In this document: positions 640 to 19,900 of the stretch, one piece after another
Layout of the letters: each line of letters starts with the position of its first letter
Numbering within the stretch: position 1 is the first letter of the stretch
Origin: Phycicoccus sp. HDW14
GTDB taxonomy: Bacteria > Actinomycetota > Actinomycetes > Actinomycetales > Dermatophilaceae
DNA: 64,000 bases
NCBI RefSeq assembly: GCF_011383005.1
Contig: NZ_CP049935.1
Location: 1,116,001-1,180,000, forward strand
Direction of reading: 5' to 3'
Translations under genes and position numbers: made by a program
Notes under the pieces: generated by a model
What the model saw: only the letters and a program-made list of their open reading frames with translations
Databases searched by the model: none
Told to the model about the DNA's origin: nothing

Positions 640-1581
640 TCAGGTCCCGCTCTCGACGGCGGGCGCCGGCGGTCCGGACACGGGGTAGGTGCGCCGCAGC
701 CACGACCCGTACCTCCGGTCGTCCCGGCACGCCGCGGCCGACTGGCAGACGTGCGAGTCGTGCGCGGCGTAGGCGAGGAAGGTCGCCAGCTTCCGCGCGT
801 CGACCGCCTCGGGCTGGTTGGCGGGCAGCCGGCCCATCGGGTAGCCGCGGAAGCCCTCCACGCGGTGCGGCACGGTGTAGGCCCGTTGGGCCTCGTACGT
901 GTAGTACGCGACGTTGTGGTGGTCGGTGTGGTCCCCGTCCCCGGTGGGGTCGGTGTAGTCGAGCGTGCGCACGACGCCCGGGTGGAACGTCGTCATGAGC
1001 CCGGTGAGGGTGGCCCGCAGCGACGCGCTCGAGTAGCTCGCGGTGCCGTCGACGGCGTGCACCACCGGGCCGGTCCCCGCGCGCAGCCTGCTGAGGCACT
1101 CGTGGTGGTGGACGGCGCGCCCGCGGGGGCTGCCGGCCGGCAGCCGCAGGAAGACCAGCCGGACGTGCGTCCCGTCGAGCGCCTGGGAGAGGACCACCTG
1201 GCCGGACGCGGTGCGCATCCTCGTGGTCGTCCAGGTGTTGCCCACACCGGCCATCCCGGCGTACGCGGCCATCGCGCCGGCCTCACGGCCCTCCCAGTAC
1301 GACCGGCCGAGGCCGTCGTCGCCGGCCGTCAGGTACACCGTGGTGACGCACCGGCCCGCGGCCACGTCGGACGCCGTGGGGGAGTAGATGAAGAGGAGGT
1401 CGTCGTCCTGGTGGGCCACGACGTCCATGCTCGAGCTCGCGGTCGTGCAGGCGGCCGGCACCACGACGGGGTCCACGGCGGGACCCACCCGGTCGGTGGC
1501 CTGATCGGAACCGGCACACCCGGCCAGGGTCGCGACGAGCCCGGCCGCGACCAGCAGGGCCCTGGTGCGCCGGAGCCCCAT
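640..1581 (-). CDS. PIG-L family deacetylase-like lipoprotein
   Basis: A 313-residue secreted protein related to LmbE/PIG-L zinc-dependent N-acetyl-sugar deacetylases. The start is the ATG at 1581, because it gives a clean lipoprotein signal peptide with lipobox LAGC at residues 19-22. The metal motif near residues 56-61 reads AHQDDD instead of the usual AHPDDE, and the second metal motif DHTDHHN is present further on. The substrate cannot be read from sequence; cell-envelope or glycoconjugate sugars are plausible. The gene converges on tdk with 30 bp between stops. The P-to-Q and E-to-D changes in the first motif may alter metal binding or activity. Confidence 0.8.
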   Translation of the reverse strand: MGLRRTRALLVAAGLVATLAGCAGSDQATDRVGPAVDPVVVPAACTTASSSMDVVAHQDDDLLFIYSPTASDVAAGRCVTTVYLTAGDDGLGRSYWEGREAGAMAAYAGMAGVGNTWTTTRMRTASGQVVLSQALDGTHVRLVFLRLPAGSPRGRAVHHHECLSRLRAGTGPVVHAVDGTASYSSASLRATLTGLMTTFHPGVVRTLDYTDPTGDGDHTDHHNVAYYTYEAQRAYTVPHRVEGFRGYPMGRLPANQPEAVDARKLATFLAYAAHDSHVCQSAAACRDDRRYGSWLRRTYPVSGPPAPAVESGT

Positions 1582-1682
1582 CACGCGTCCGCCGTCCCCG
1601 TCATGGGACACACGGTGCCAGTCCGGGGTCGTCCGGCGCCACGGAATCGGCACCACGGGGCGTGCGAGGTGGCGCCGAGGTG

Positions 1683-2789
1683 TCAGGCGGGGCCGGAGCC
1701 CTTGGTGCCGAAGACGATGTCGTCCCAGCTGGGGACGCTCGGCCGGCCGCGGCGCGACCCCGACGCGGAGGCCGACCCCGCGGAGGCGCTCGACGCCGTG
1801 CGGGCCGGGCTCTCGTCCGGCGCCGCGCGCGTCGAGTCGGTCTCGGGCCGCTGCGGCTCGTCGTCCTCGGGCCAGCCACCGACCATGGTCCGGGCGCGGC
1901 TCGGCTCCTCGAGGTGCTCGCGCACCGGTTTGCGGGCCCGGGCGGCGGGCGGCGGGCCGGCCTGCGACAGGTCGCCGGCCAGCTCCTCGATGGGCAGGGC
2001 GTCGTCGCGGGGGCCGTCCTCGCCCGGCGTGTGCGTGGGGGAGGAGCGGCGGCGCGAGCGCCGCCCGCGGGCGCTGTGCTCGCGCATCGCGGCCATGAGG
2101 TCGATGGGCTCGTGCGGTGCGCGCTGGGCGGCGGCCCGCTCGATGCCGCCGTCGGCGTCGACGTCGTACACGTCGAGCTCGGGGGAGGTCGCGGCCCGGT
2201 GCGGGGTCGGGATGAGGCCGGAGGTCGACTCCTCGCTCATCCAGCGCGCCTCGTCGTTGCTCGGGGTCACCGAGCCGCCGAGGGGCTCGTAGAGCCAGGT
2301 GGCGGTGCGGCGCCGGCCGCCGGCGGCGAAGGTCATCGACAGCTGCCAGACGCCCTCCTCGTCGCGGGCGGAGTCCCACTCGATCTCATCGCGGTCGACA
2401 CCGCGGTCGCGCAGCCGCTCCGAGACGCGGTCGGCGAGGGAGACGGGCGCCGGCCCGCGGGTGCCGACGGCGCAGCCGCGGGCGATGCGGGCGATGTGCT
2501 CGCGCTCGGCGAGGATCGGGCCCTCGAAGCGGCGCACCTTCTCGACGGTCCAGCCGGAGCGGTCGGCGACCTCCTCGGCGGACAGGCCGCGCCGGATGAG
2601 CGCCTGCACCTCGCGCGGGCGCATGCCGCCGTCCATCTCGATCTGCAGCTGGCCGAGCCGCGGTCGGTCGCGGCGTGCGGCGGCTCGCAGGGGCTCGTCG
2701 AGGGACAGCCGGAACCGGCCCCCGTCGGCGTCCGCGAGCAGGAGGTGCTGACCGTCCTCGTGGACGCCGATCAGGCGAAGGTCCTGCAT
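1683..2789 (-). CDS. sepH: Septation protein SepH (DUF3071)
   Basis: SepH promotes FtsZ ring assembly in actinobacteria by a direct interaction. The first 165 residues match the conserved DUF3071 domain: the MQDLRL opening, a stretch rich in RDRPRLGQLQIEMDG, then an HTH-like helix pair at about 90-130. The remaining 200 residues are a charged, low-complexity tail typical of the family. I chose the ATG at 2789 because the family begins with MQDLRL; a GTG six codons upstream (2807) is possible but adds no conserved residues. It is transcribed divergently from hemH, and an SD-like GGGAG lies upstream of the start. Confidence 0.9.
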   Translation of the reverse strand: MQDLRLIGVHEDGQHLLLADADGGRFRLSLDEPLRAAARRDRPRLGQLQIEMDGGMRPREVQALIRRGLSAEEVADRSGWTVEKVRRFEGPILAEREHIARIARGCAVGTRGPAPVSLADRVSERLRDRGVDRDEIEWDSARDEEGVWQLSMTFAAGGRRRTATWLYEPLGGSVTPSNDEARWMSEESTSGLIPTPHRAATSPELDVYDVDADGGIERAAAQRAPHEPIDLMAAMREHSARGRRSRRRSSPTHTPGEDGPRDDALPIEELAGDLSQAGPPPAARARKPVREHLEEPSRARTMVGGWPEDDEPQRPETDSTRAAPDESPARTASSASAGSASASGSRRGRPSVPSWDDIVFGTKGSGPA

Positions 2790-2884
2790 GTCGGTCTCCC
2801 GGGTCACTCGTCGTCAGGCCGACGATGCCACCGCGGGGCGCCCGGATCGTGGAGCCCACGCCGGGCGCGGCGCGATTGCCCGGA

Positions 2885-2890
2885 TAGCGT
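2885..2890 (+). promoter_or_regulatory. -10 element (TAGCGT) of hemH, leaderless type
   Basis: TAGCGT ends 6 nt before the hemH ATG at 2897, so transcription would start at or beside the start codon. The same geometry recurs at least ten times in this window. Confidence 0.6.
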
Positions 2891-2896
2891 GGTGCC

Positions 2897-4009
2897 ATGC
2901 CCGATGCGTCCGCCGACCTCTCCCCGTACGACGTGGTGCTCCTCGGGTCCTTCGGGGGACCCGAGGCACCCGACGAGGTGATGCCCTTCCTCCGCCGCGT
3001 CACGGCCGGCCGGAACATCCCCGACGAGCGGCTCGCCGTCGTCGCCGAGCACTACGACGCCCGGGGTGGTGTGAGCCCCATCAACGCCCTCAACCGCGAC
3101 CTGCTGGCCCGGCTGCGCGCCGAGCTGGCCCGGCGCGAGATCGACGTGCCGGTCGTGTGGGGCAACCGCAACTCCGAGCCGTTCTTCACCGGTGCGCTCC
3201 ACGAGGCGCTCGACCTCGGTGCGACACAGGTGGTCTCGCTGTTCACGAGCGCCTACTCCTGCTACTCCTCCTGCCGCCAGTACCGCGAGGACCTCGCGGC
3301 CGCGCTCGAGGAGGTGGGCCCCGCCGCCGACGGGCTGGTCGTCGACAAGGTGCGCCAGTACGTCCACCACCCCGGCCTCGGGCGGGCCTGGACGCGGGCC
3401 ATGGTCGAGGCCCTGCGCGGGCTGCCCGACCCCGCCGCCGCGCGCATCCTCTACGTGACGCACTCGGTGCCGCTCGCGATGGACGACACGTCCGGGCCCG
3501 GTGACGGCGAGGGCAACCTCTACACCGACCAGCACCTGCGCCTCGCCCGGCGGCTCGACGAGGCCGTCGGTGCCGAGCTCGGCGTCACCCTGCGCGGCGA
3601 GCTCGTGTTCTGCTCGCGCTCGGGGCCGCCGAGCCAGCCGTGGCTCGAGCCCGACGTCAACGACCGCATCGAGGAGCTCGCGGCCGAGGACGCCACCGCA
3701 CCGGTCGTCGTCGTGCCCATCGGCTTCGTCTCCGACCACATGGAGGTCGTGCACGACCTCGACACCGAGGCCGCCGAGACGGCCGAGCGGGTCGGGGTGC
3801 CGTTCGTCCGCGTGGCCACCCCGCACGGCGACGACGGGTTCGTCGAGGCGCTCGTCGACCTGCTCCTCGAGCGGGCGGCCGAGGCCCGCGGCGAGGTCGT
3901 CGTCCCCGACACCTGGCTGCCCGGCGACGTCCGGCCCTCGGTGTGCGACCCCGGCTGCTGCCCCAACCTGCGCGTCGCGAAGGCGGCGCTCTGCGGACGG
4001 GACCGATGA
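2897..4009 (+). CDS. hemH: Ferrochelatase (coproporphyrin III type)
   Basis: Inserts ferrous iron into the porphyrin near the end of haem synthesis. In actinobacteria the substrate is normally coproporphyrin III, and HemQ (present here at 50.3 kb) finishes the pathway. The 370-residue protein has the N-terminal GSFGGPE motif, the family YSCYSSCRQYRED segment, THSVP with the conserved active-site histidine, and DHMEVVHDLD with the metal-site glutamate. The C-terminal CDPGCCPN cysteines together with YSC fit the [2Fe-2S] cluster described in actinobacterial ferrochelatases. Its stop overlaps the next start (ATGA), so the two are cotranscribed. Confidence 0.95.
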   Translation: MPDASADLSPYDVVLLGSFGGPEAPDEVMPFLRRVTAGRNIPDERLAVVAEHYDARGGVSPINALNRDLLARLRAELARREIDVPVVWGNRNSEPFFTGALHEALDLGATQVVSLFTSAYSCYSSCRQYREDLAAALEEVGPAADGLVVDKVRQYVHHPGLGRAWTRAMVEALRGLPDPAAARILYVTHSVPLAMDDTSGPGDGEGNLYTDQHLRLARRLDEAVGAELGVTLRGELVFCSRSGPPSQPWLEPDVNDRIEELAAEDATAPVVVVPIGFVSDHMEVVHDLDTEAAETAERVGVPFVRVATPHGDDGFVEALVDLLLERAAEARGEVVVPDTWLPGDVRPSVCDPGCCPNLRVAKAALCGRDR

Positions 4010-4877
4010 GCACCGCGCCGTCACTGCCCGCCGGCCTCGACCCGGTCGCGCTCGAGCAGGTGGCCTGCGACGTGGCGCGCGACGCCGGCCGGCTCGTCGT
4101 CGACGACCGGCCCGCCGAGCTCGGCACCAGCTCGAAGTCGACCCGCACCGACGTCGTCACCGAGATGGACCAGCGCAGCCAGGAGCTGCTCCTCGAGCGG
4201 CTCGCGGCCCTGCGCCCCGACGACGCGGTGCTCGGCGAGGAGGAGGGCGGCCGGGCGGCACGAGCGGGGTGACCTGGGTCGTCGACCCCATCGACGGCAC
4301 CATCAACTACCTCTACGGGATGGCCGAGTACGCGGTGTCCGTCGCGGCCGTCGTCGGCGACCCGGAGGTGCCCGGCGCCTGGCGCACCGTGGCCGCCGCC
4401 GTGCTCAACCCCCCGACCGGCGAGCTCTTCCACGCCCACCTCGGCGGCGGCGCCCGGCTCACCACGCCCGCCGGGACGCGCGTCGTGCACGCCAACCCGG
4501 TCAGCGACCTCGGCCTGTCCCTCGTCGGCACCGGGTTCGGCTACGACGCCGGGGTGCGCGAGCGCCAGGCCCGGGCCCTCGTCGAGCTGCTGCCCCGGGT
4601 CCGCGACGTCCGGCGGCACGGGAGCGCCGCCCTCGACCTGTGCTCCGTCGCCTGCGGGCGGCTCGACGGCTACTACGAGACCGGGCTCAACGCGTGGGAC
4701 CGCGCCGGCGGCGAGCTCGTGGCCACCGAGGCCGGCGCCGTCGTCGGCGGACCCGTCGACGGGGTGAGCACGCGCGACCTCACCTGGGCCGCCGCGCCGG
4801 GCATCGCCGTCGAGCTCTCGACCCTCGTGCGCGAGCTGAGCGCCCGCCACGTCGGGTCGGTCGGACCCCCCGCCTGA
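4006..4877 (+). CDS. Inositol monophosphatase family protein (one apparent frameshift)
   Basis: A Mg-dependent phosphatase of the IMPase/SuhB fold. The N-terminal part (4006 to about 4250) carries the GEE metal motif; the rest continues in another frame with WVVDPIDGT and the C-terminal WDRAGGELVATEAG motif. Adding one base in the G/C-rich stretch near 4245-4260 joins them into a roughly 290-residue protein of normal family length with every catalytic motif intact. I treat it as one gene with an assembly error. The ATG overlaps the hemH stop. Whether it acts on inositol-1-phosphate, histidinol phosphate or another sugar phosphate is not visible. Confidence 0.85.
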
Positions 4878-5035
4878 GACGTCCGCGACGAGCGCCCGGG
4901 TCGTGGTGTGGACCCGCGTGGCGGTGCTCACCGTCGATGGTGCACAATCTGGCGCGCACGGCGACGGCGCGGGCACAAAGCCGGGACCCCGTGCGTTGTC
5001 CCGGCCGATCGCACGACGAAGGGTGGACACCGACG

Positions 5036-5335
5036 ATGGCAACCGACTACGACGCACCGCGCAAGACCGACGACGAGCTCTCCGAGGACTCCATCGAGGA
5101 GCTGAAGAACCGTCGCGTCGACAAGCGCGCCTCGAGCGTCGACGTCGACGAGACCGAGCAGGCCGAGGGGTTCGAGCTGCCCGGCGCCGACCTCTCCGGG
5201 GAGGAGCTGTCGGTCCGGGTGCTGCCGCGCCAGGCCGACGAGTTCACGTGCTCGCGCTGCTTCCTCGTGCACCACCGCAGCCAGCTCGCCAGTGAGCGCG
5301 CCGGCGTGCTCGTCTGCCGGGAGTGCGCCGCCTGA
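5036..5335 (+). CDS. DUF4193 zinc-ribbon-like protein
   Basis: A 99-residue conserved actinobacterial protein of unknown function. The N-terminal half is acidic and charged; the C-terminal half has two cysteine pairs (CSRC and CREC about 28 residues apart) that should bind one zinc. The start ATG at 5036 has a GAAGGGTGG Shine-Dalgarno region upstream. It leads a conserved actinobacterial gene order with dut, DUF3710, an OB-fold protein and DUF3159. The 158 bp upstream of it holds only a weak AT-richer stretch near 4940-4950 that might contain a promoter. Confidence 0.88.
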   Translation: MATDYDAPRKTDDELSEDSIEELKNRRVDKRASSVDVDETEQAEGFELPGADLSGEELSVRVLPRQADEFTCSRCFLVHHRSQLASERAGVLVCRECAA

Positions 5336-5355
5336 CCGGCGGCCGCGACCGACCG

Positions 5356-5826
5356 GTGGCCGCACCCACCCGCGTCCCCGTCGCCGTCCGGCGCCTGCAC
5401 GCGGACGCGGTGCTGCCCCGCTACAGCACCGACGGCGACGCCGGCGCCGACCTCACGAGCGTGGCCGAGCTGACCCTCGCCCCCGGCGAACGTGCCCTCG
5501 TGCCCACCGGCCTCGCGCTCGCCCTGCCGCCCGGCACCGTCGGGCTGGTCCACCCGCGCTCGGGCCTGGCCGCCCGCCACGGCGTGAGCATCGTCAACGC
5601 CCCGGGGACGGTCGACTCCGGGTACCGCGGCGAGGTGCTCGTCAACCTCGTCAACCTCGACCCCACCGAGCCGTTCACCGTGCGGGTCGGCGACCGCATC
5701 GCCCAGCTCGTCGTCCAGGAGTACCTCCACGGCGAGTTCTCGGAGGCCGATTCGCTTCCGGACAGCGCGCGGGGGGAGACTGGACACGGGTCCACCGGGG
5801 GCTTCGGCTCCACCGGTCGCCGGTGA
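5356..5826 (+). CDS. dut: dUTP diphosphatase
   Basis: Hydrolyses dUTP to dUMP, keeping uracil out of DNA and supplying the dTMP precursor. About 156 residues, the size of a trimeric dUTPase, with all five motifs: DAGADL, PRSGLA, NAPGTVDSGYRGE with the catalytic Asp, RIAQLVV, and the glycine-rich C-terminal arm TGGFGSTG. The GTG at 5356 is chosen because it starts just before the conserved core and does not overlap the upstream gene; an in-frame ATG at 5323 would overlap the DUF4193 gene. Confidence 0.95.
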   Translation: MAAPTRVPVAVRRLHADAVLPRYSTDGDAGADLTSVAELTLAPGERALVPTGLALALPPGTVGLVHPRSGLAARHGVSIVNAPGTVDSGYRGEVLVNLVNLDPTEPFTVRVGDRIAQLVVQEYLHGEFSEADSLPDSARGETGHGSTGGFGSTGRR

Positions 5827-5863
5827 ACCCGCCGACCACCTGACACCCGAGGACCCCACCACC

Positions 5864-6612
5864 GTGAGCATCTTCCGCAGGAGCAAGACCACCGGCCCCG
5901 AGCCCACCGAGGCGCTCGAGCCCGACGACGCCGTCGAGGCCGAGGAGGCCGACGGGTCCGCCGAGGACGAGGCCGCCGAGGAGGCGCCCGCCCGCGACGG
6001 CGGCCCCTTCGACGTCGCCGACGTCCCCGGGCGTGACGGCCGGGTCGACCTCGGGTCGCTCTGGGTCCGCGGCGTCCCCGGGATGGAGCTGCGCCTCGAG
6101 GTCGAGCAGGAGACCCAGCAGGTCAACGCGGCCACCGCCGTCATCGGCGAGTCCGCGCTCCAGCTCCAGGCCTTCGCGGCCCCGCGCTCCAGCGGGCTGT
6201 GGCGCGAGATCCGGCGCGAGATCGCGATGGCCGTCGAGCAGCAGGGCGGCACCGTCGAGGAGCACACCACCGACCTCGGCACGCAGCTGCGCACCCGCAT
6301 GCCCTCGGCCGGCCCGGACGGTCGCACGGTCTTCGCGCCGGCGACCTTCGTCGGCGTCGACGGCCCGCGCTGGTTCCTGCGCGGCGTCCTCTCCGGCCGC
6401 GCGGCCATCGACGAGGCGGCCGCCGAGGCGCTGCTCGAGGTCCTGCGCGACGTCGTCGTCGTCCGTGGCACCGACCCGATGGCCCCCCGCGAGCTGCTGC
6501 CCCTCGTCCTCCCGCAGGACGCCCACCCGGAGGTCGCCCCGAGTCGGACGCCGACGACGAGCAGACCCTCGACCCGTTCGAGCGGGGCCCCGAGATCACC
6601 GAGGTGCGCTGA
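5864..6612 (+). CDS. DUF3710 domain protein (one apparent frameshift near the 3' end)
   Basis: Conserved actinobacterial protein of unknown function. An acidic N-terminal segment (about residues 10-50, rich in Glu and Ala) precedes the DUF3710 core, which includes VPGMELRLEV and GPRWFLRGVLSG. Near 6535 the frame breaks: restoring one C in the run before GAGTCGG gives the acidic tail DEQTLDPFERGPEITEVR ending at TGA 6610-6612, directly overlapping the next ATG. Without that repair the frame would run about 95 residues into the next gene, so a one-base under-call is the better reading. GTG start at 5864. Confidence 0.85.
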
Positions 6613-6971
6613 TGGGCGTCCGCGAGCGGCTGCGCGACCTGGCCCGCACCTCCACCGAGCAGCACGCCGACGAGCTGCGCGAGCAGACCGTGTCCGAGGG
6701 CGGTGACGACCTCACGGCGCTCGCCCCGCGGCACTCGGCCTGCGTCTGCGGCACCGTCCGCACCGTCACGCTGCCGCCGCGCACCAGCGTGCCGGCCCTG
6801 GTCGCCGAGGTCTGGGACGGCCAGGGCGCGGTCAACCTCGTGTGGGTCGGGCGGCGCTCCATCGGCGGCATCGAGCCGGGCACCTTCGTGCGCGCCCGCG
6901 GGCGGGTGACCACCGTCAAGGGCTCGCCGACGATCTTCAACCCGGCCTACGAGATCCTCCCGAAGCCGTGA
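6612..6971 (+). CDS. OB-fold nucleic acid-binding domain protein
   Basis: A 119-residue protein whose residues about 40-115 look like a single OB-fold of the kind found in actinobacterial proteins next to DUF3159. Visible core strands include CVCGTVRTVTL, LVAEVWDGQGAVNLVWVG and FVRARGRVTTVKG. The N-terminal 35 residues are a charged helix. The start overlaps the preceding stop (TGATG) and the stop overlaps the next start (GTGA), so it sits in the middle of a translationally coupled operon. The ligand (RNA, DNA or protein) is unknown. Confidence 0.8.
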   Translation: MGVRERLRDLARTSTEQHADELREQTVSEGGDDLTALAPRHSACVCGTVRTVTLPPRTSVPALVAEVWDGQGAVNLVWVGRRSIGGIEPGTFVRARGRVTTVKGSPTIFNPAYEILPKP

Positions 6972-13334: not shown

Positions 13335-13346
13335 GCGGGCTCAGCC
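13329..13346. terminator. Bidirectional hairpin enclosing two convergent stop codons
   Basis: Arms GGCTGAG and CTCAGCC with a 4-nt loop. The left arm contains the hydrolase TGA and the right arm the regulator stop read on the other strand. No T-tract follows, as is common in high-GC actinobacteria. Confidence 0.55.
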
Positions 13347-13997
13347 GCCCGAGCGCCGCACGAACCCGGTCTCGTAGGCCAGGACGACGGCCTGCACCCG
13401 GTCGCGCACACCGAGCTTCGTGAGGACCCGGGCCACGTGGGTCTTCACCGTCGTCTCGGCCACGACCATCTCGGCCGCGAGCTCGGCGTTCGACAGGCCG
13501 CGGGCGAGGAGGCGCAGGACGTCGAGCTCGCGCTCGGTGAGCGCGGAGAGCCGCTGCGGCACACCCTCGTCGGCGGACGGCTCCGCGTACTGCTCGACGA
13601 GCCGACGCGTGATCGAGGGCTCGATGAGCGAGTCGCCGGTGGCCGCCGCCCGCACCGCGGCGAGCAACCGCGACGGGGGAGCGTCCTTGAGGAGGAACCC
13701 GGCGGCGCCGGCTCGCAGCGCGCGGTAGACGTACGCGGTGCCGTCGAAGGTCGTGAGGACGACGACGGTCGGCGGGTCGGGCCGCGACAGGATGCGCTCG
13801 GTGGCGGCCAGGCCGTCGAGCACCGGCATCCGGATGTCCATGAGCACGACGTCCGGCCGCACGAGGGCCGCCTGGCGGATCGCCTCCTCGCCGTCGGCCG
13901 CCTCGGCGACGACCTCGATGTCGCCCTCGGTCTCGAGGATGACCCGGAAGCCGGCGCGCACGAGCTCCTGGTCGTCCGCGACGAGCACCCTGATCAC
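13341..13997 (-). CDS. NarL/FixJ-type response regulator
   Basis: A 218-residue two-component regulator. Receiver domain 1-120 with acidic pocket DD at 8-9, phosphoacceptor Asp54 (VLMDIRMP) and the conserved LLKD lysine. The LuxR-type HTH at about 150-210 has the LTERELDVLRLLARG and NAELA signatures. The GTG at 13997 fits the canonical receiver start (VIRVLVADDQ). It is divergent from the membrane/kinase genes at 14.1-17 kb, its probable cognate sensors. Confidence 0.92.
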   Translation of the reverse strand: MIRVLVADDQELVRAGFRVILETEGDIEVVAEAADGEEAIRQAALVRPDVVLMDIRMPVLDGLAATERILSRPDPPTVVVLTTFDGTAYVYRALRAGAAGFLLKDAPPSRLLAAVRAAATGDSLIEPSITRRLVEQYAEPSADEGVPQRLSALTERELDVLRLLARGLSNAELAAEMVVAETTVKTHVARVLTKLGVRDRVQAVVLAYETGFVRRSGG

Positions 13998-14003
13998 GAG
14001 GTC

Positions 14004-14072
14004 ATCCTGCCGTGGCGGGGCGCGTCGCGGGTCGTCCGCGAGGAGGACGCGACCGTCGCAGGATCGTCCTCC
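14004..14072. promoter_or_regulatory. Divergent control region with inverted repeats
   Basis: Two oppositely oriented GCAGGAT copies (minus strand 14004-14010, plus strand 14058-14064) look like paired -10 regions. An 8-bp inverted repeat (GGAGGACG at 14042 and CGTCCTCC at 14065) overlaps the rightward one, a plausible binding site for the adjacent regulator. Confidence 0.35.
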
Positions 14073-14158
14073 GGGACGACGCGGGTCGGGCCGGCGCGGG
14101 CGCACCGTGGTGCCGACGGCTCCGGCAGGGGGCCGGACCCGACCGGAAAGGCACCACC

Positions 14159-14692
14159 ATGACCCACGGAATCCGTCCCAGCGACGTCGTCCTCACCCTC
14201 GTCTCGCTCGCCCTCGCGGTGCTCATCGCCGTCGAGAACATCACCGCCGCGGCGGGTGCCGAGCTCGCGCACCCCCTGGAGTCCCGCTCGGTGCTCCTCG
14301 TCCCCGTCTTCGCGCTGGCGGCGCTGCCGATCCTGTGGCGGCGGCGGCACGTGCTCCTGGGCATCGCCCTCTCGACGCTCGTCCTCGCGGCCAGCATCCC
14401 CGCCTTCGGCTGGGTGACCCGCTGCGGCTTCGCGCTCCCGCTCGCGGCGTTCTTCGCGTACGCCGTCGCGCGGTTCGCCGGCCCGGCCCGCTCGCAGCTC
14501 ATCGGGCTCGCCGCCGTCCTCCTCCTCCAGCTCGTGACGCTCGTGCAGGACGCCTCCACGGGGGGTCTGGGAGGGCTCGTCCTCGGGGTGCCGGCCGCGG
14601 CGCTGGCCTACGGCGCCGGGGTGGCCGTCGAGAAGCTCTCGGCACGGCGCCCCGCGGCGCCTACGCTGTCCGTCGAGCACGTCCACGCCTGA
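14159..14692 (+). CDS. Small integral membrane protein linked to a two-component locus
   Basis: A 177-residue protein that is almost entirely hydrophobic, with about five transmembrane segments. I do not recognise a named family. It closely resembles the membrane part of the next gene: both share WVTRCG followed by ALPL, then QDASTGG versus RDATTGI at matching spacing, so the two are tandem paralogues. Start ATG 14159 follows an SD-like GGAAAGG. It lies 12 bp upstream of the pseudokinase gene, so cotranscription is near certain. Likely role: accessory sensor or membrane partner of the kinases. Confidence 0.72.
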   Translation: MTHGIRPSDVVLTLVSLALAVLIAVENITAAAGAELAHPLESRSVLLVPVFALAALPILWRRRHVLLGIALSTLVLAASIPAFGWVTRCGFALPLAAFFAYAVARFAGPARSQLIGLAAVLLLQLVTLVQDASTGGLGGLVLGVPAAALAYGAGVAVEKLSARRPAAPTLSVEHVHA

Positions 14693-14704
14693 GGTGATCG
14701 AGTG

Positions 14705-15874
14705 ATGGAGCAGGGCATCCGCGAGGTCCTCCGAGGGGTCCGTCCCCTCGACGGGGTCCTCGCGGGTGCCCTCACCGCGCTCGGCGTCCTCCTCATGGTG
14801 TTCAACGTCCTCGACACGCCGGCCGAGTCGGCCGCCGCCGTGGCCGAGGGGTCAATGGTCCACGTGACGTCGTCGCACTCGTGGTGGATGGTCCCGGTGT
14901 TCGTCGTGGCCACGGTGGCGGTCCTCTGGTGGCGCCGCGGCGTCACGGAGGTGGCGACGGTCGCGGCCGTGGCGATGGGCGTCCACGTGCTCCTCTTCGA
15001 CTGGGTCACGCGCTGCGGTGCGGCCCTGCCCCTCGTCCTCGTGCTGGGGTACCTCGCCGGCCTCGCCGAACGCGGCCGTCGGCGGTGGGCCGCCGCCGCG
15101 GTGCTGTCGGTGCTGTCGGCACTCGTCCTCGTCCGGGACGCCACGACCGGCATCGAGCCGCTCGTCATCGTGCTGCCCCTGCTCGCCGTCCTCCTCGTCG
15201 TCGGCGGGGCGGTCCGGCAGCGCACCGTGATGGCCGACGAGCTGCGCCGCAAGGGGGCCGAGCTCGCCGCGCTGCGCGACGAGCGCGCCGCCCTCGTCGT
15301 CGCCGACGACCGGCAGCGCCTCACCGAGCAGCTCGACGGGCTGCTCCAGGCCCGGCTCGGTCGCCTCGCGACGGTCGCCGACGGGGCGCGCGACCTCGAC
15401 CCGGTGCGCGCCCGGGCCGCCCTCGTCGAGATCGAGGCCGACGGCCGGCAGATGCTCGAGGAGATGCGCGAGGTGGTCGGCCGGCTGCGCGGGGACGCCG
15501 CCCTGGCCCCCCTCCCCGCGACCGCGCACCTCGACGCCCTCCTCGCCCGTCGGGCCGGTCCCGGCTCGCACCTCACGGTGACCGGGGACCCCACCGGGCT
15601 GCCCGCCAGCGTCGAGCTGTCGGTCTACCGCATCGTCGAGCACCTCGTCGAGGCCCTGCGCGAGCGCGAGTCCGGGGTCGAGGTCACGGTGCTGCTCGAC
15701 GGGCCCGCCCTCGAGATCTGCGTCGAGGGGCGGGCCGCACGCGGAGCGGCGGTGCGCGCCGCCCTGGCCCGGGCGCGGGAGCGGGCCCGCGTCGTCGGCG
15801 GCACCCTCGAGGTGACGACCGTCCGCGGGCGGGCGCTGGCCGTCGCGGCGGTCCCGGTCCCGGACCGGGTCTGA
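14705..15874 (+). CDS. Membrane-anchored degenerate sensor kinase (pseudokinase)
   Basis: A 389-residue protein: about five transmembrane segments (20-180), then a cytoplasmic part that aligns to HisKA_3/HATPase kinases but has lost the catalytic residues. Where the next gene has RQRIAGELHD, this one has RQRLTEQLDG, placing Asp211 where the phospho-accepting His should be. The N-box is reduced to VYRIVEHLVEALRE without its Asn, and the glycine-rich ATP lid is missing. The sequence is otherwise well conserved and open, so it is not decaying. It is probably a signalling partner for the true kinase downstream. Start ATG 14705; GTG 14702 is an alternative. Confidence 0.78.
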   Translation: MEQGIREVLRGVRPLDGVLAGALTALGVLLMVFNVLDTPAESAAAVAEGSMVHVTSSHSWWMVPVFVVATVAVLWWRRGVTEVATVAAVAMGVHVLLFDWVTRCGAALPLVLVLGYLAGLAERGRRRWAAAAVLSVLSALVLVRDATTGIEPLVIVLPLLAVLLVVGGAVRQRTVMADELRRKGAELAALRDERAALVVADDRQRLTEQLDGLLQARLGRLATVADGARDLDPVRARAALVEIEADGRQMLEEMREVVGRLRGDAALAPLPATAHLDALLARRAGPGSHLTVTGDPTGLPASVELSVYRIVEHLVEALRERESGVEVTVLLDGPALEICVEGRAARGAAVRAALARARERARVVGGTLEVTTVRGRALAVAAVPVPDRV

Positions 15875-15877
15875 GCC

Positions 15878-17014
15878 GTGCGCCGCGCGGAGTCCGCGGG
15901 CATCGTCCTCGGGGTCCTCCTCGCGGTCGTCCTGCCCGTCCTGCTCCACGGCCCGTCGTGGTCCCCCCGGGAGGTCGCGGTCGACCTCCTGCTCGTCGCG
16001 GCGGGCCTGGCCCTGCTCTGGTGGCGCACCGCGGCGCAGGTGGCCGCGTCCCTGTCGCTCGGCCTGCTGCTGGCGGTGCTCGTCCTCGGCCCCGACGTCT
16101 GGTTCCCCGACTCGGCGCTCGTCGTCCTGGCGGTCGCCAGCGCGCTCCTCGGGTTCGCCTGGAGCGGTCGCCAGTCCGTGGTCGTCGGCCTCGTCGGGCT
16201 GGCCTACCTCGGGGTCCTCGTGGCCCTCGCAGGGCCCGGCGGCGTCGTGTCCCTGCCGATGTTCACCCTCCCGGGGTACGCGGCCGGGACGATCCTGCGC
16301 AGGCGACAGGACACCGCCGAGGAGCTGGCCCGCCGGACCGCCGAGCTCGAGCGCGAGCAGGAGGAGCTCGAGGAGCTGTCCGTGCGGCACGAGCGGCAGC
16401 GCATCGCGGGCGAGCTCCACGACGTCGTCGGTCACGCGCTGAGCGTCCTCGTCATCCAGGCGGCCGCCGGCCAGCGGCTCGTCGACAGCGAACCGGAGCG
16501 GGCGGCACGCACCCTCGACGTCATCGCCGAGTCGGCCCGCCGCGGCACCGCGGACCTCGAGCGGCTCGTCGAGCTGCTCGGCGGCGAGGCGACCCCCGCC
16601 CCGGACCTCGGGCTCGTCGACGACGTCGTCGCGCACGCCGTCCGCAGCGGCCTCGACGTCACGTACCGCGTGGACGCCGACCGCGCCGCCGTCACCGACC
16701 ACGCCGCCCACCTCGTCCACCGGGTCGTCCAGGAGGGGTTGACCAACGCCCTGCGCCACGCACCGGGCTCCCCGGTGCGGATCCGGGTCGCGGCGCAGGC
16801 CGAGGGTGGCCTCGCCGTGAGCGTCGAGAACGACCGGTCCGCCGGCGTCGGGACCCTGCGGGGGAGCGGCCGCGGGCTCCTGGGGCTGCGCGAGCGGGTG
16901 CAGGCCCAGGGAGGGCGGTTGCGGGCCGGGCCGACGGACAGTGGTGGGTGGCGGGTCGAGGCGTGGCTGCCGCTGGTCGCGGGCGCCCTCGCGACACCCC
17001 GGCCCCGGGCATAG
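15878..17014 (+). CDS. Sensor histidine kinase (HisKA_3 type)
   Basis: A 378-residue membrane histidine kinase with about five transmembrane segments in residues 8-140, a coiled linker rich in Glu and Arg, the DHp motif ERQRIAGELHDVVGH with His181, and a C-terminal ATPase domain with N-box EGLTNALRHA and G-box GRGLLGLRERV. It should phosphorylate the divergent NarL-type regulator at 13.3 kb. The GTG start is 3 bp after the pseudokinase stop. Confidence 0.9.
   Translation: MRRAESAGIVLGVLLAVVLPVLLHGPSWSPREVAVDLLLVAAGLALLWWRTAAQVAASLSLGLLLAVLVLGPDVWFPDSALVVLAVASALLGFAWSGRQSVVVGLVGLAYLGVLVALAGPGGVVSLPMFTLPGYAAGTILRRRQDTAEELARRTAELEREQEELEELSVRHERQRIAGELHDVVGHALSVLVIQAAAGQRLVDSEPERAARTLDVIAESARRGTADLERLVELLGGEATPAPDLGLVDDVVAHAVRSGLDVTYRVDADRAAVTDHAAHLVHRVVQEGLTNALRHAPGSPVRIRVAAQAEGGLAVSVENDRSAGVGTLRGSGRGLLGLRERVQAQGGRLRAGPTDSGGWRVEAWLPLVAGALATPRPRA

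Positions 17015-17113: not shown

Positions 17114-19900
<2,787 letters not shown>

Follow-up and report, generated by a model that had tools for sequence, protein, structure and literature searches.

Why would a kinase-like protein that has lost its phosphorylatable His be maintained, next to a live histidine kinase, in distantly related actinobacteria? This question is raised by a four-gene locus of Phycicoccus sp. HDW14, which was analyzed within a 64,000-nucleotide stretch of contig NZ_CP049935.1 (positions 1,116,001 to 1,180,000; hereafter the window). The locus encodes a response regulator (RR), a membrane-only protein (MEM), a pseudokinase (PSK) and a histidine kinase (HK), and the retention of the dead PSK beside the live HK across distant species suggests that PSK steers HK. 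On balance, PSK is probably an obligate allosteric partner of HK which would couple a membrane sensor to this kinase, with RR regulating its own synthesis through dyad symmetries in the rr-mem gap.

Catalytic residues and fold of the pseudokinase

A contig scan yielded 29 loci, 28 of which are orthologous to that of the window, the remaining one, L096 (Serinibacter), being an ordinary kinase-regulator pair; three of the 28 duplicate the records of G005, G017 and G026 and entered the counts once, and all counts out of 29 given below refer to the window plus the 28 orthologous loci. At the phosphorylation site, the sequence LTEQLDGLLQA of PSK aligns with IAGELHDVVGH of HK, which places Asp211 at the position of the His, in agreement with the initial annotation. 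This residue is Asp in 29/29 orthologues and in all ten further, distant PSKs (one each from G199, G222, G503, G944, G1007 and G274, and two each from G1000 and G971), that is, in 39/39 members of the family overall; no orthologue with an active His was found among them. PSK thus lacks the phosphorylatable His in helix 1 of the DHp domain that marks an active HisKA_3 histidine kinase. Compared with Pfam, it gives a sub-threshold score for HisKA_3 (20.2 bits, the cut-off being 24) and no match to HATPase_c; HisKA_3 is matched by 25 of the 29 PSK members at E <= 0.01. In the CA domain, the Asp of the G1 box is absent and the lid is reduced to about four residues in the structural model, whereas the residue aligned with the Asn of the N box is still Asn in 5/29 PSKs, so that the proposed absence of ATP-binding boxes holds for the lid and the G boxes and has to be relaxed for the N box.

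The fold was assessed on single-chain models of PSK (predicted local distance difference test, pLDDT, 84; 29 sequences) and HK (pLDDT 86). The PSK model contains transmembrane (TM)-like helices at residues 14-36, 62-78, 80-98, 107-121 and 124-143 and at the start of helix 151-228, which continues into DHp; the second DHp helix spans residues 233-261 and CA residues 271-384. The lid gap between strand and helix comprises 4 residues in the PSK model (strand 335-343, helix 348-363) vs 13 in that of HK (319-331). The top Foldseek matches of the PSK model are to DesK (E 1.7e-7). The CA domain superposes on that of DosS with Z 16.2 and a root-mean-square deviation (rmsd) of 2.2 over 116 residues, and the DHp-CA part superposes on DesK with Z 14.1 and rmsd 16.5 over 194 residues, compared with 2.4 for CA alone; the high value for the two domains together presumably reflects a different angle between them in PSK. 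Judged by these models, PSK keeps the fold of DHp and CA and has lost the nucleotide apparatus (save for the aligned Asn of the five sequences), and it appears unable to act as a kinase.

By contrast, HK scores above the Pfam cut-offs for HisKA_3 (E 1e-14) and HATPase_c (E 8e-9) and matches DesK as well. Its residues H181, D182, H186, N290, G329, G331 and G333 are invariant in 29/29, so that it has the His, the N box, the G2 box and the curated domains of an active HisKA_3 histidine kinase, but Asn318 in place of the G1 Asp, again in 29/29 orthologues. The description of HK as a complete kinase therefore stands for His181, Asn290 and the G2 glycines and fails for the G1 Asp, and HK may have an unusual affinity for ATP. 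RR combines a receiver domain with a phosphorylatable Asp (Response_reg, E 1.3e-26) and a LuxR-type helix-turn-helix (GerE, E 1.5e-19), as expected of the NarL/LuxR type; its residues D8, D9, D54, T82 and K104 are invariant in 29/29 orthologues, and it is the slowest evolving of the four proteins (mean pairwise distance 0.190).

Distribution of the module and coupling of its kinase-like proteins

The order and orientation of the RR, MEM, PSK and HK genes are the same as in the window in all 28 further loci (in L087, the RR match spans residues 1-170 of 218 only), and the predicted conservation of gene order in other actinobacteria is thereby borne out. The named sources of these loci belong to Phycicoccus, Humibacillus, Marmoricola, Aeromicrobium, Kribbella, Micromonospora and Actinoplanes/Paractinoplanes; among named organisms, Phycicoccus sonneratiae has the closest orthologue of PSK, with 67% identity. 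Whole-genome searches add G199, G222 and G503, each with all four genes. The distribution is sparse: with the best few candidates scored per genome, PSK was found in 6/186 genomes of its own family at >= 500 bits (next best, 111 bits), including 2/12 genomes of its own genus, in 3/394 genomes of a class sample (G000, G503 and G274), in 2/396 genomes of a phylum sample at >= 298 bits and in at least 4/61 genomes of the family of G944. Its range covers at least two classes of this phylum. The five other genomes of the class sample with matches at E <= 1e-30 hold His kinases (5/5). With PSK in only 2/12 genomes of the genus, gain and loss seem to affect the module as a whole.

At five deeper loci (G944, G1007, two in G1000 and G274), PSK, HK and RR are present, the RR gene of G274 lying 3' of HK on the same strand, and MEM was not detected in the stretches read around them. 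Accordingly, PSK, HK and RR form the core, to which MEM belongs in part of the family only; the initial view of a duplicated and specialized unit is right in that MEM is a copy of the PSK membrane module, although this duplication, not detected at the five deeper loci, is not its essence. A score cut-off was tried as a definition of the family and rejected, since the second PSK of G1000, at 143 bits, is outscored by some His kinases, which reach 155 bits in the case of a double open reading frame (ORF); low-scoring members were assigned by the residue at 211 and by gene order.

Several variants of the module deserve mention. In L177 (G971), positions 1477-6939 comprise a MEM-like stretch followed by PSK, HK and another PSK, so that HK is flanked by two pseudokinases. 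L178 (G1000; 1803-4677) is a second, more diverged module that consists of a PSK with Asp211 and the motif RCS, HK and a divergent RR. In the regulator frame of L162 (G944; 3311-4732), whose true start is unsure, the receiver begins at residue 254; the possible extra N-terminal residues, in which Pfam finds no match, may resemble a nucleotide-cyclase domain. All other kinase-like relatives examined are His kinases, except for L155 (G727; 1447-3678, minus strand), a single frame with two kinase-like parts, the first with Arg in place of His (ELRDVLAHS) and the second a His kinase, which is possibly another, fused pseudokinase-kinase pairing.

PSK and HK also occur jointly. In searches that scored the best few candidates per genome, the six family genomes matching the profile of the partner HK (>= 450 bits) are exactly the six of 186 that have PSK, and neither orthologue was found at these levels in the other 180; in the phylum sample of 396 genomes, HK exceeds 205 bits in G000 and G944 only, the same two genomes as PSK. 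In a tree of 40 cytoplasmic parts, chosen from those read and rooted at the midpoint, 11 PSKs and their 11 partner HKs each form one clade (support 100/100), and the two clades branch in nearly the same order, the part from G274 and then that from G944 splitting off first in both. An origin of PSK as a recent copy of HK is rejected on the basis of these separate clades and of a branch, with 100/100 support, that sets all 11 PSKs apart from the other 29 members of the tree, which are His kinases.

Among the six pairs of module proteins, evolutionary distances correlate most strongly for PSK and HK (0.925), followed by MEM-HK (0.853), RR-HK (0.787), MEM-PSK (0.777), RR-PSK (0.770) and RR-MEM (0.692); these values, computed over 29 related sequences without a significance test, are weak evidence. 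The partial correlation is 0.725 for PSK-HK (given RR and MEM), 0.530 for MEM-HK (given RR and PSK) and -0.075 for MEM-PSK (given RR and HK), and, by parts, MEM correlates best with the HK membrane domain and PSK CA with HK DHp (0.840). Taken together, these numbers hint that HK may be the hub of the complex, its membrane part being associated with MEM and its cytoplasmic part with PSK. PSK is under purifying selection: the ratios of nonsynonymous to synonymous substitutions (dN/dS), estimated with the Nei-Gojobori method for 8 pairs in which two loci were used twice, are 0.077-0.435 for PSK and 0.120-0.480 for HK, rough values given the codon bias of high-GC genomes, and the ratio for PSK CA (0.050-0.366) is below that of HK of the same pair in 8/8. 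The values below 0.5 for PSK in all 8 pairs, together with its co-occurrence with HK, support the earlier suggestion of selection for a role of PSK.

Proposed mode of action and alternative explanations

The DHp surface was compared with that of DesK of Bacillus subtilis, which represents the fold family of PSK and HK; positions are given as offsets from the His site, and the contacts of DesK were mapped assuming a gapless helix. According to the available part of the DesK report, the regulator is contacted by Ser196 (+8), Leu200 (+12), Asp203 (+15) and Arg206 (+18) (PMC5231405). At +8, +12 and +18, the entropy among PSKs is 1.83, 2.16 and 2.94 bits, respectively, whereas in HK all three are fixed in 29/29. 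The positions of the family phosphatase motif differ as well: +1 is Gly in 27/29 PSKs vs Asp in 29/29 HKs, and +5 is Glu in 22/29 PSKs vs His in 29/29 HKs. Positions -8, -5, -1, 0, +6, +7, +10 and +14 of PSK are fixed in 29/29. As read from these alignments, PSK retains the core of the DHp bundle and has lost most of the regulator-gripping residues compared.

The membrane end of the presumed relay is shared by PSK and MEM. The relationship of MEM to the N-terminal part of PSK is evident from pairwise comparison (38% identity over 141 residues, E 3e-16) and from profile-profile comparison (probability 100, E 6e-45, 163 columns), and the membrane module attributed to both proteins from the outset is confirmed. 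No relation of the membrane domain of HK to MEM could be detected (profile probability 0.5), in line with a membrane domain of its own. Nevertheless, the PSK-HK profile alignment (probability 99.3) extends over 314 columns that take in a portion of the membrane region along with DHp and CA, and HK of G274 gives a sub-threshold match to DUF7134 (16.8 vs 27 bits); on these two grounds, the HK membrane part and the module may share a distant origin. DUF7134 (curated cut-off 27 bits) has no match in MEM or PSK of the window at E <= 1, is weakly matched by 15/26 MEM members at E <= 0.05 and scores 29.4 and 23.5 bits with the deeper PSKs of G944 and G274, respectively. With respect to LiaF-type accessory proteins, MEM has no match in Pfam or NCBIfam at E <= 1, and none of the 26 MEM members matches an accessory-protein family in Pfam at E <= 0.05.

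A nearly invariant feature is the loop at PSK residues 99-106 (mostly GWVTRCGA), with a mean entropy of 0.16 bits vs 1.07 in the TM helices. MEM repeats the RCG motif of this loop, and its residues H38, R88, C89, G90, D131 and S133 are invariant in 29/29 (W85 in 28/29); RCG also precedes the fourth TM helix in 9/10 additional PSKs, the second G1000 copy having RCS. Since Lys and Arg number 201 in the predicted inner stretches of the 29 PSK sequences vs 51 in the outer ones, the RCG loop and Asp145 are placed on the outer face. That an outer ligand, metal or redox cue acts at the RCG loop is a guess.

Under the preferred reading, PSK and MEM would carry the signal-receiving membrane module, with the nearly invariant RCG loop predicted to lie outside, and PSK would relay the signal through the coiled coil and DHp to HK. 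The contact might involve pairing of the two DHp domains, in a heterodimer or a higher form, and/or the lid-less CA domain of PSK, and we infer pairing of PSK with HK and not of two copies of PSK. It would set the balance between the kinase and phosphatase activities of HK without handling phosphoryl groups itself, HK would phosphorylate RR, and RR would bind the two dyads of the rr-mem gap, thereby controlling its own divergent operon; MEM, which copies the membrane half, probably serves to tune or anchor the complex. How the signal might be held is a more tentative matter. Because H188E of DesK is used as a phosphomimetic (PMC5231405, available part), Asp211 can be viewed as a natural acid at the place of the His, and it is conceivable, though doubtful, that it mimics phospho-His and keeps DHp in a phosphorylated-like form, so that the paired PSK would force one state on HK until released by the RCG module.

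Several observations weigh against obligate pairing of PSK with HK, in addition to the limits stated above for the genome searches and the distance correlations. MEM correlates better with the membrane part of HK (0.864) than with that of PSK (0.721), and these correlations, together with the partial value for MEM-HK, do not fit a simple MEM-PSK pair. The dN/dS ratio of PSK DHp ranges widely (0.025-0.691), with the top value in the pair of the window and L068. The DesK contact position +15 is Glu or Asp in 27/29 PSKs and Ala in 27/29 HKs, and PSK may retain some contact with the regulator. Homodimerization of PSK is possible, and the truncated ChrS pseudokinase of Corynebacterium glutamicum showed no interaction in a two-hybrid assay, as far as the available part of that report goes (PMC9491836).

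The acidic +15 position bears directly on the explanation in which PSK acts on RR, its DHp domain binding the regulator and sequestering it or dephosphorylating it with Asp211 and Gln215. These two residues form a DxxxQ motif one residue out of register with the HDxxxQ motif of NarX/DesK-type kinases, D211 being present in 29/29 and Q215 in 26/29, and the pseudokinase DivL is described as binding a response regulator (PMC5361649, available part). This explanation is rather unlikely nonetheless, given the loss of the phosphatase positions, the free variation of three of the four contact positions and the replacement of Q215 by Leu or Arg in 3/29 as well as by residues other than Gln in G503, G274, G1007 and the second copy of G1000. 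An improbable alternative makes PSK a homodimeric membrane sensor or scaffold for some other partner, with its adjacency to HK reflecting shared expression only; the complete DHp core would permit homodimers, but PSK and the HK orthologue occur together or not at all in the genomes searched, and no third family travels along. When the neighbors of the 29 loci were clustered, no gene family was found to be kept beside the module across genera, the widest ones reaching 5/29 loci, within Kribbella or at varying places.

The CA domain, whose fold is complete in the model and whose sequence is highly conserved, could in principle still bind a nucleotide or another ligand and signal by it; with a modeled lid of 4 residues against 13 in HK, no G1 Asp and the aligned N-box Asn limited to 5/29, such signaling is quite improbable. 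As for a decaying duplicate kept by chance, which the lost catalytic residues and the frameshifts in the adjacent aconitase gene of the window genome might suggest, the uniform Asp at position 211 in 39/39 PSKs, the low dN/dS of PSK in 8/8 pairs and the spread over at least two classes leave practically no room for it.

Predicted operators, locus and relation to known systems

The rr-mem gap measures 114-186 bp when gene starts are set by homology and contains, in 29/29 loci, a dyad with <= 2 mismatches to TCRTCC-N4-GGAYGA; in 27/29, a second one follows 31-34 bp further on at <= 3 mismatches, L076 and L084 being the two loci in which it was not found. With the looser pattern TCNTCC-N4-GGANGA at <= 2 mismatches, both dyads are found in G199, G222 and G944, 31-32 bp apart; G503 shows only the first one in this position, and no dyad was found in the 400 bp examined from G274. 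Dyad 2 is the sole exact match to the consensus in the 64-kb window. Single dyads at <= 2 mismatches number 60 in the window vs 19.7 in shuffles, an excess that is put down to codon bias, single sites not being significant by count. Exact matches to the consensus, with those to a reversed-pattern control in parentheses, number 8 (4) in G000, 14 (4) in G005, 4 (3) in G026, 7 (4) in G199 and 5 (1) in G222, and the paired-site pattern matches many other places (in G000, 7 vs 3 in the control). The exact sites read beyond the own promoter, 7 in G000 and 7 of the 14 in G005, all lie inside ORFs by a crude frame filter, several of these ORFs being doubtful (including L125, L134, L135 and L136), and no target of RR beyond its own operon was found among them. 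Given the recurrence of the rr-mem dyads across loci, RR likely autoregulates through those of the window (Table 1).

Table 1. Genes and predicted operators of the locus, in window positions
Feature	Position	Strand	Description
RR	13341-13997	-	NarL/LuxR-type response regulator, 218 aa, divergent to MEM/PSK/HK
Dyad 1	14032-14047		predicted RR operator, TCGTCC-N4-GGAGGA
Dyad 2	14064-14079		predicted RR operator, TCGTCC-N4-GGACGA
MEM	14159-14692	+	membrane-only protein, 177 aa, module as in PSK residues 5-175
PSK	14705-15874	+	pseudokinase of 389 aa with about six TM helices, DHp ~196-261 and CA 271-384
HK	15878-17014	+	catalytic DesK-type histidine kinase of 378 aa with His181; membrane domain of another kind

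The four-gene cluster with a divergent NarL-type regulator delineated by the initial annotation was recovered with all genes intact. The MEM, PSK and HK genes are read rightward and RR leftward, with spacers of 12 bases between MEM and PSK and 3 bases between PSK and HK. The host genome is a single contig of 4.07 Mb with a completeness of 92.7%. The aconitase gene 3' of HK (17114-19897) is split over three reading frames (segments 17114-17623, 17533-17865, 17862-18437 and 18425-19897), whereas the orthologue in L068 is a single open frame of 929 codons. These frameshifts and the completeness value, low for a single contig, make sequencing errors in the assembly likely; the module genes are intact despite the broken neighbor.

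Histidine pseudokinases that assist an active kinase are not without precedent. According to the accessible part of a report on DivL, the His is substituted, by Asp among other residues, in about 1% of kinases, and studies of the bacterial cases are scarce (PMC5361649). DivL of Caulobacter, as described there, resembles PSK in that its His is replaced, the kinase fold is kept and the protein controls another kinase, CckA; it differs in having Tyr for His, in binding a response regulator and in linking two pathways (PMC5361649), whereas PSK has Asp and has lost most of the regulator-contact positions compared. In C. glutamicum, another actinobacterium, an inactive variant of the ChrS kinase promotes phosphotransfer to ChrA from HrrS, its active paralogue, and the native forms of the two kinases were seen to heterodimerize; that variant, however, arose in the laboratory by a frameshift in CA, keeps the His and joins kinases from two separate systems (PMC9491836, in the part available). 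PSK, unlike this variant, is natural, ancient and encoded in an operon.

The arrangement of two adjacent kinase-like proteins with one regulator gene, seen in 28/28 loci and in the window, is also that of the Fas system. Fas belongs to another kinase and regulator type. In group A Streptococcus, it consists of two adjacent membrane kinase-like proteins, FasB and FasC, and the regulator FasA; two-hybrid assays gave FasB-FasC heterodimers and not homodimers, and FasC was proposed to be a pseudokinase (PMC12675982, available part). FasC keeps His246, which is reported to matter for phosphate flow, in contrast to the Asp of PSK, and the accessible text makes no mention of a membrane-only paralogue (PMC12675982). 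DesK is an active kinase, and a pseudokinase partner is not mentioned in the accessible part of its report (PMC5231405).

No report of an RR-MEM-PSK-HK unit was found in the literature, as judged by title and abstract among the matches listed, with subscription journals mostly outside the coverage. The initial impression that the system is not known from the literature is thus justified for the unit and too broad for the general kind, auxiliary pseudokinases being known from DivL, ChrS and FasBC. What is new is an operon-encoded pseudokinase of the DesK type with an invariant His-to-Asp replacement, a constant partner and a split-off membrane paralogue.

For few natural histidine pseudokinases is a partner known. 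The present locus is short, is found again in named strains of Kribbella, Actinoplanes, Aeromicrobium and other soil genera, and brings together the genes of the suspected partner and the regulator with a promoter that could probably serve as a reporter. The four-gene system, which could be moved as a whole into a laboratory strain, allows one to ask by what means a live kinase is controlled by a dead one and what led to the replacement of His by Asp in all members read. If Asp211 does mimic phospho-His, PSK would be the fixed dead half of an obligate asymmetric complex, a bacterial counterpart of the receptor pseudokinases, and HK alone would be silent or unregulated.

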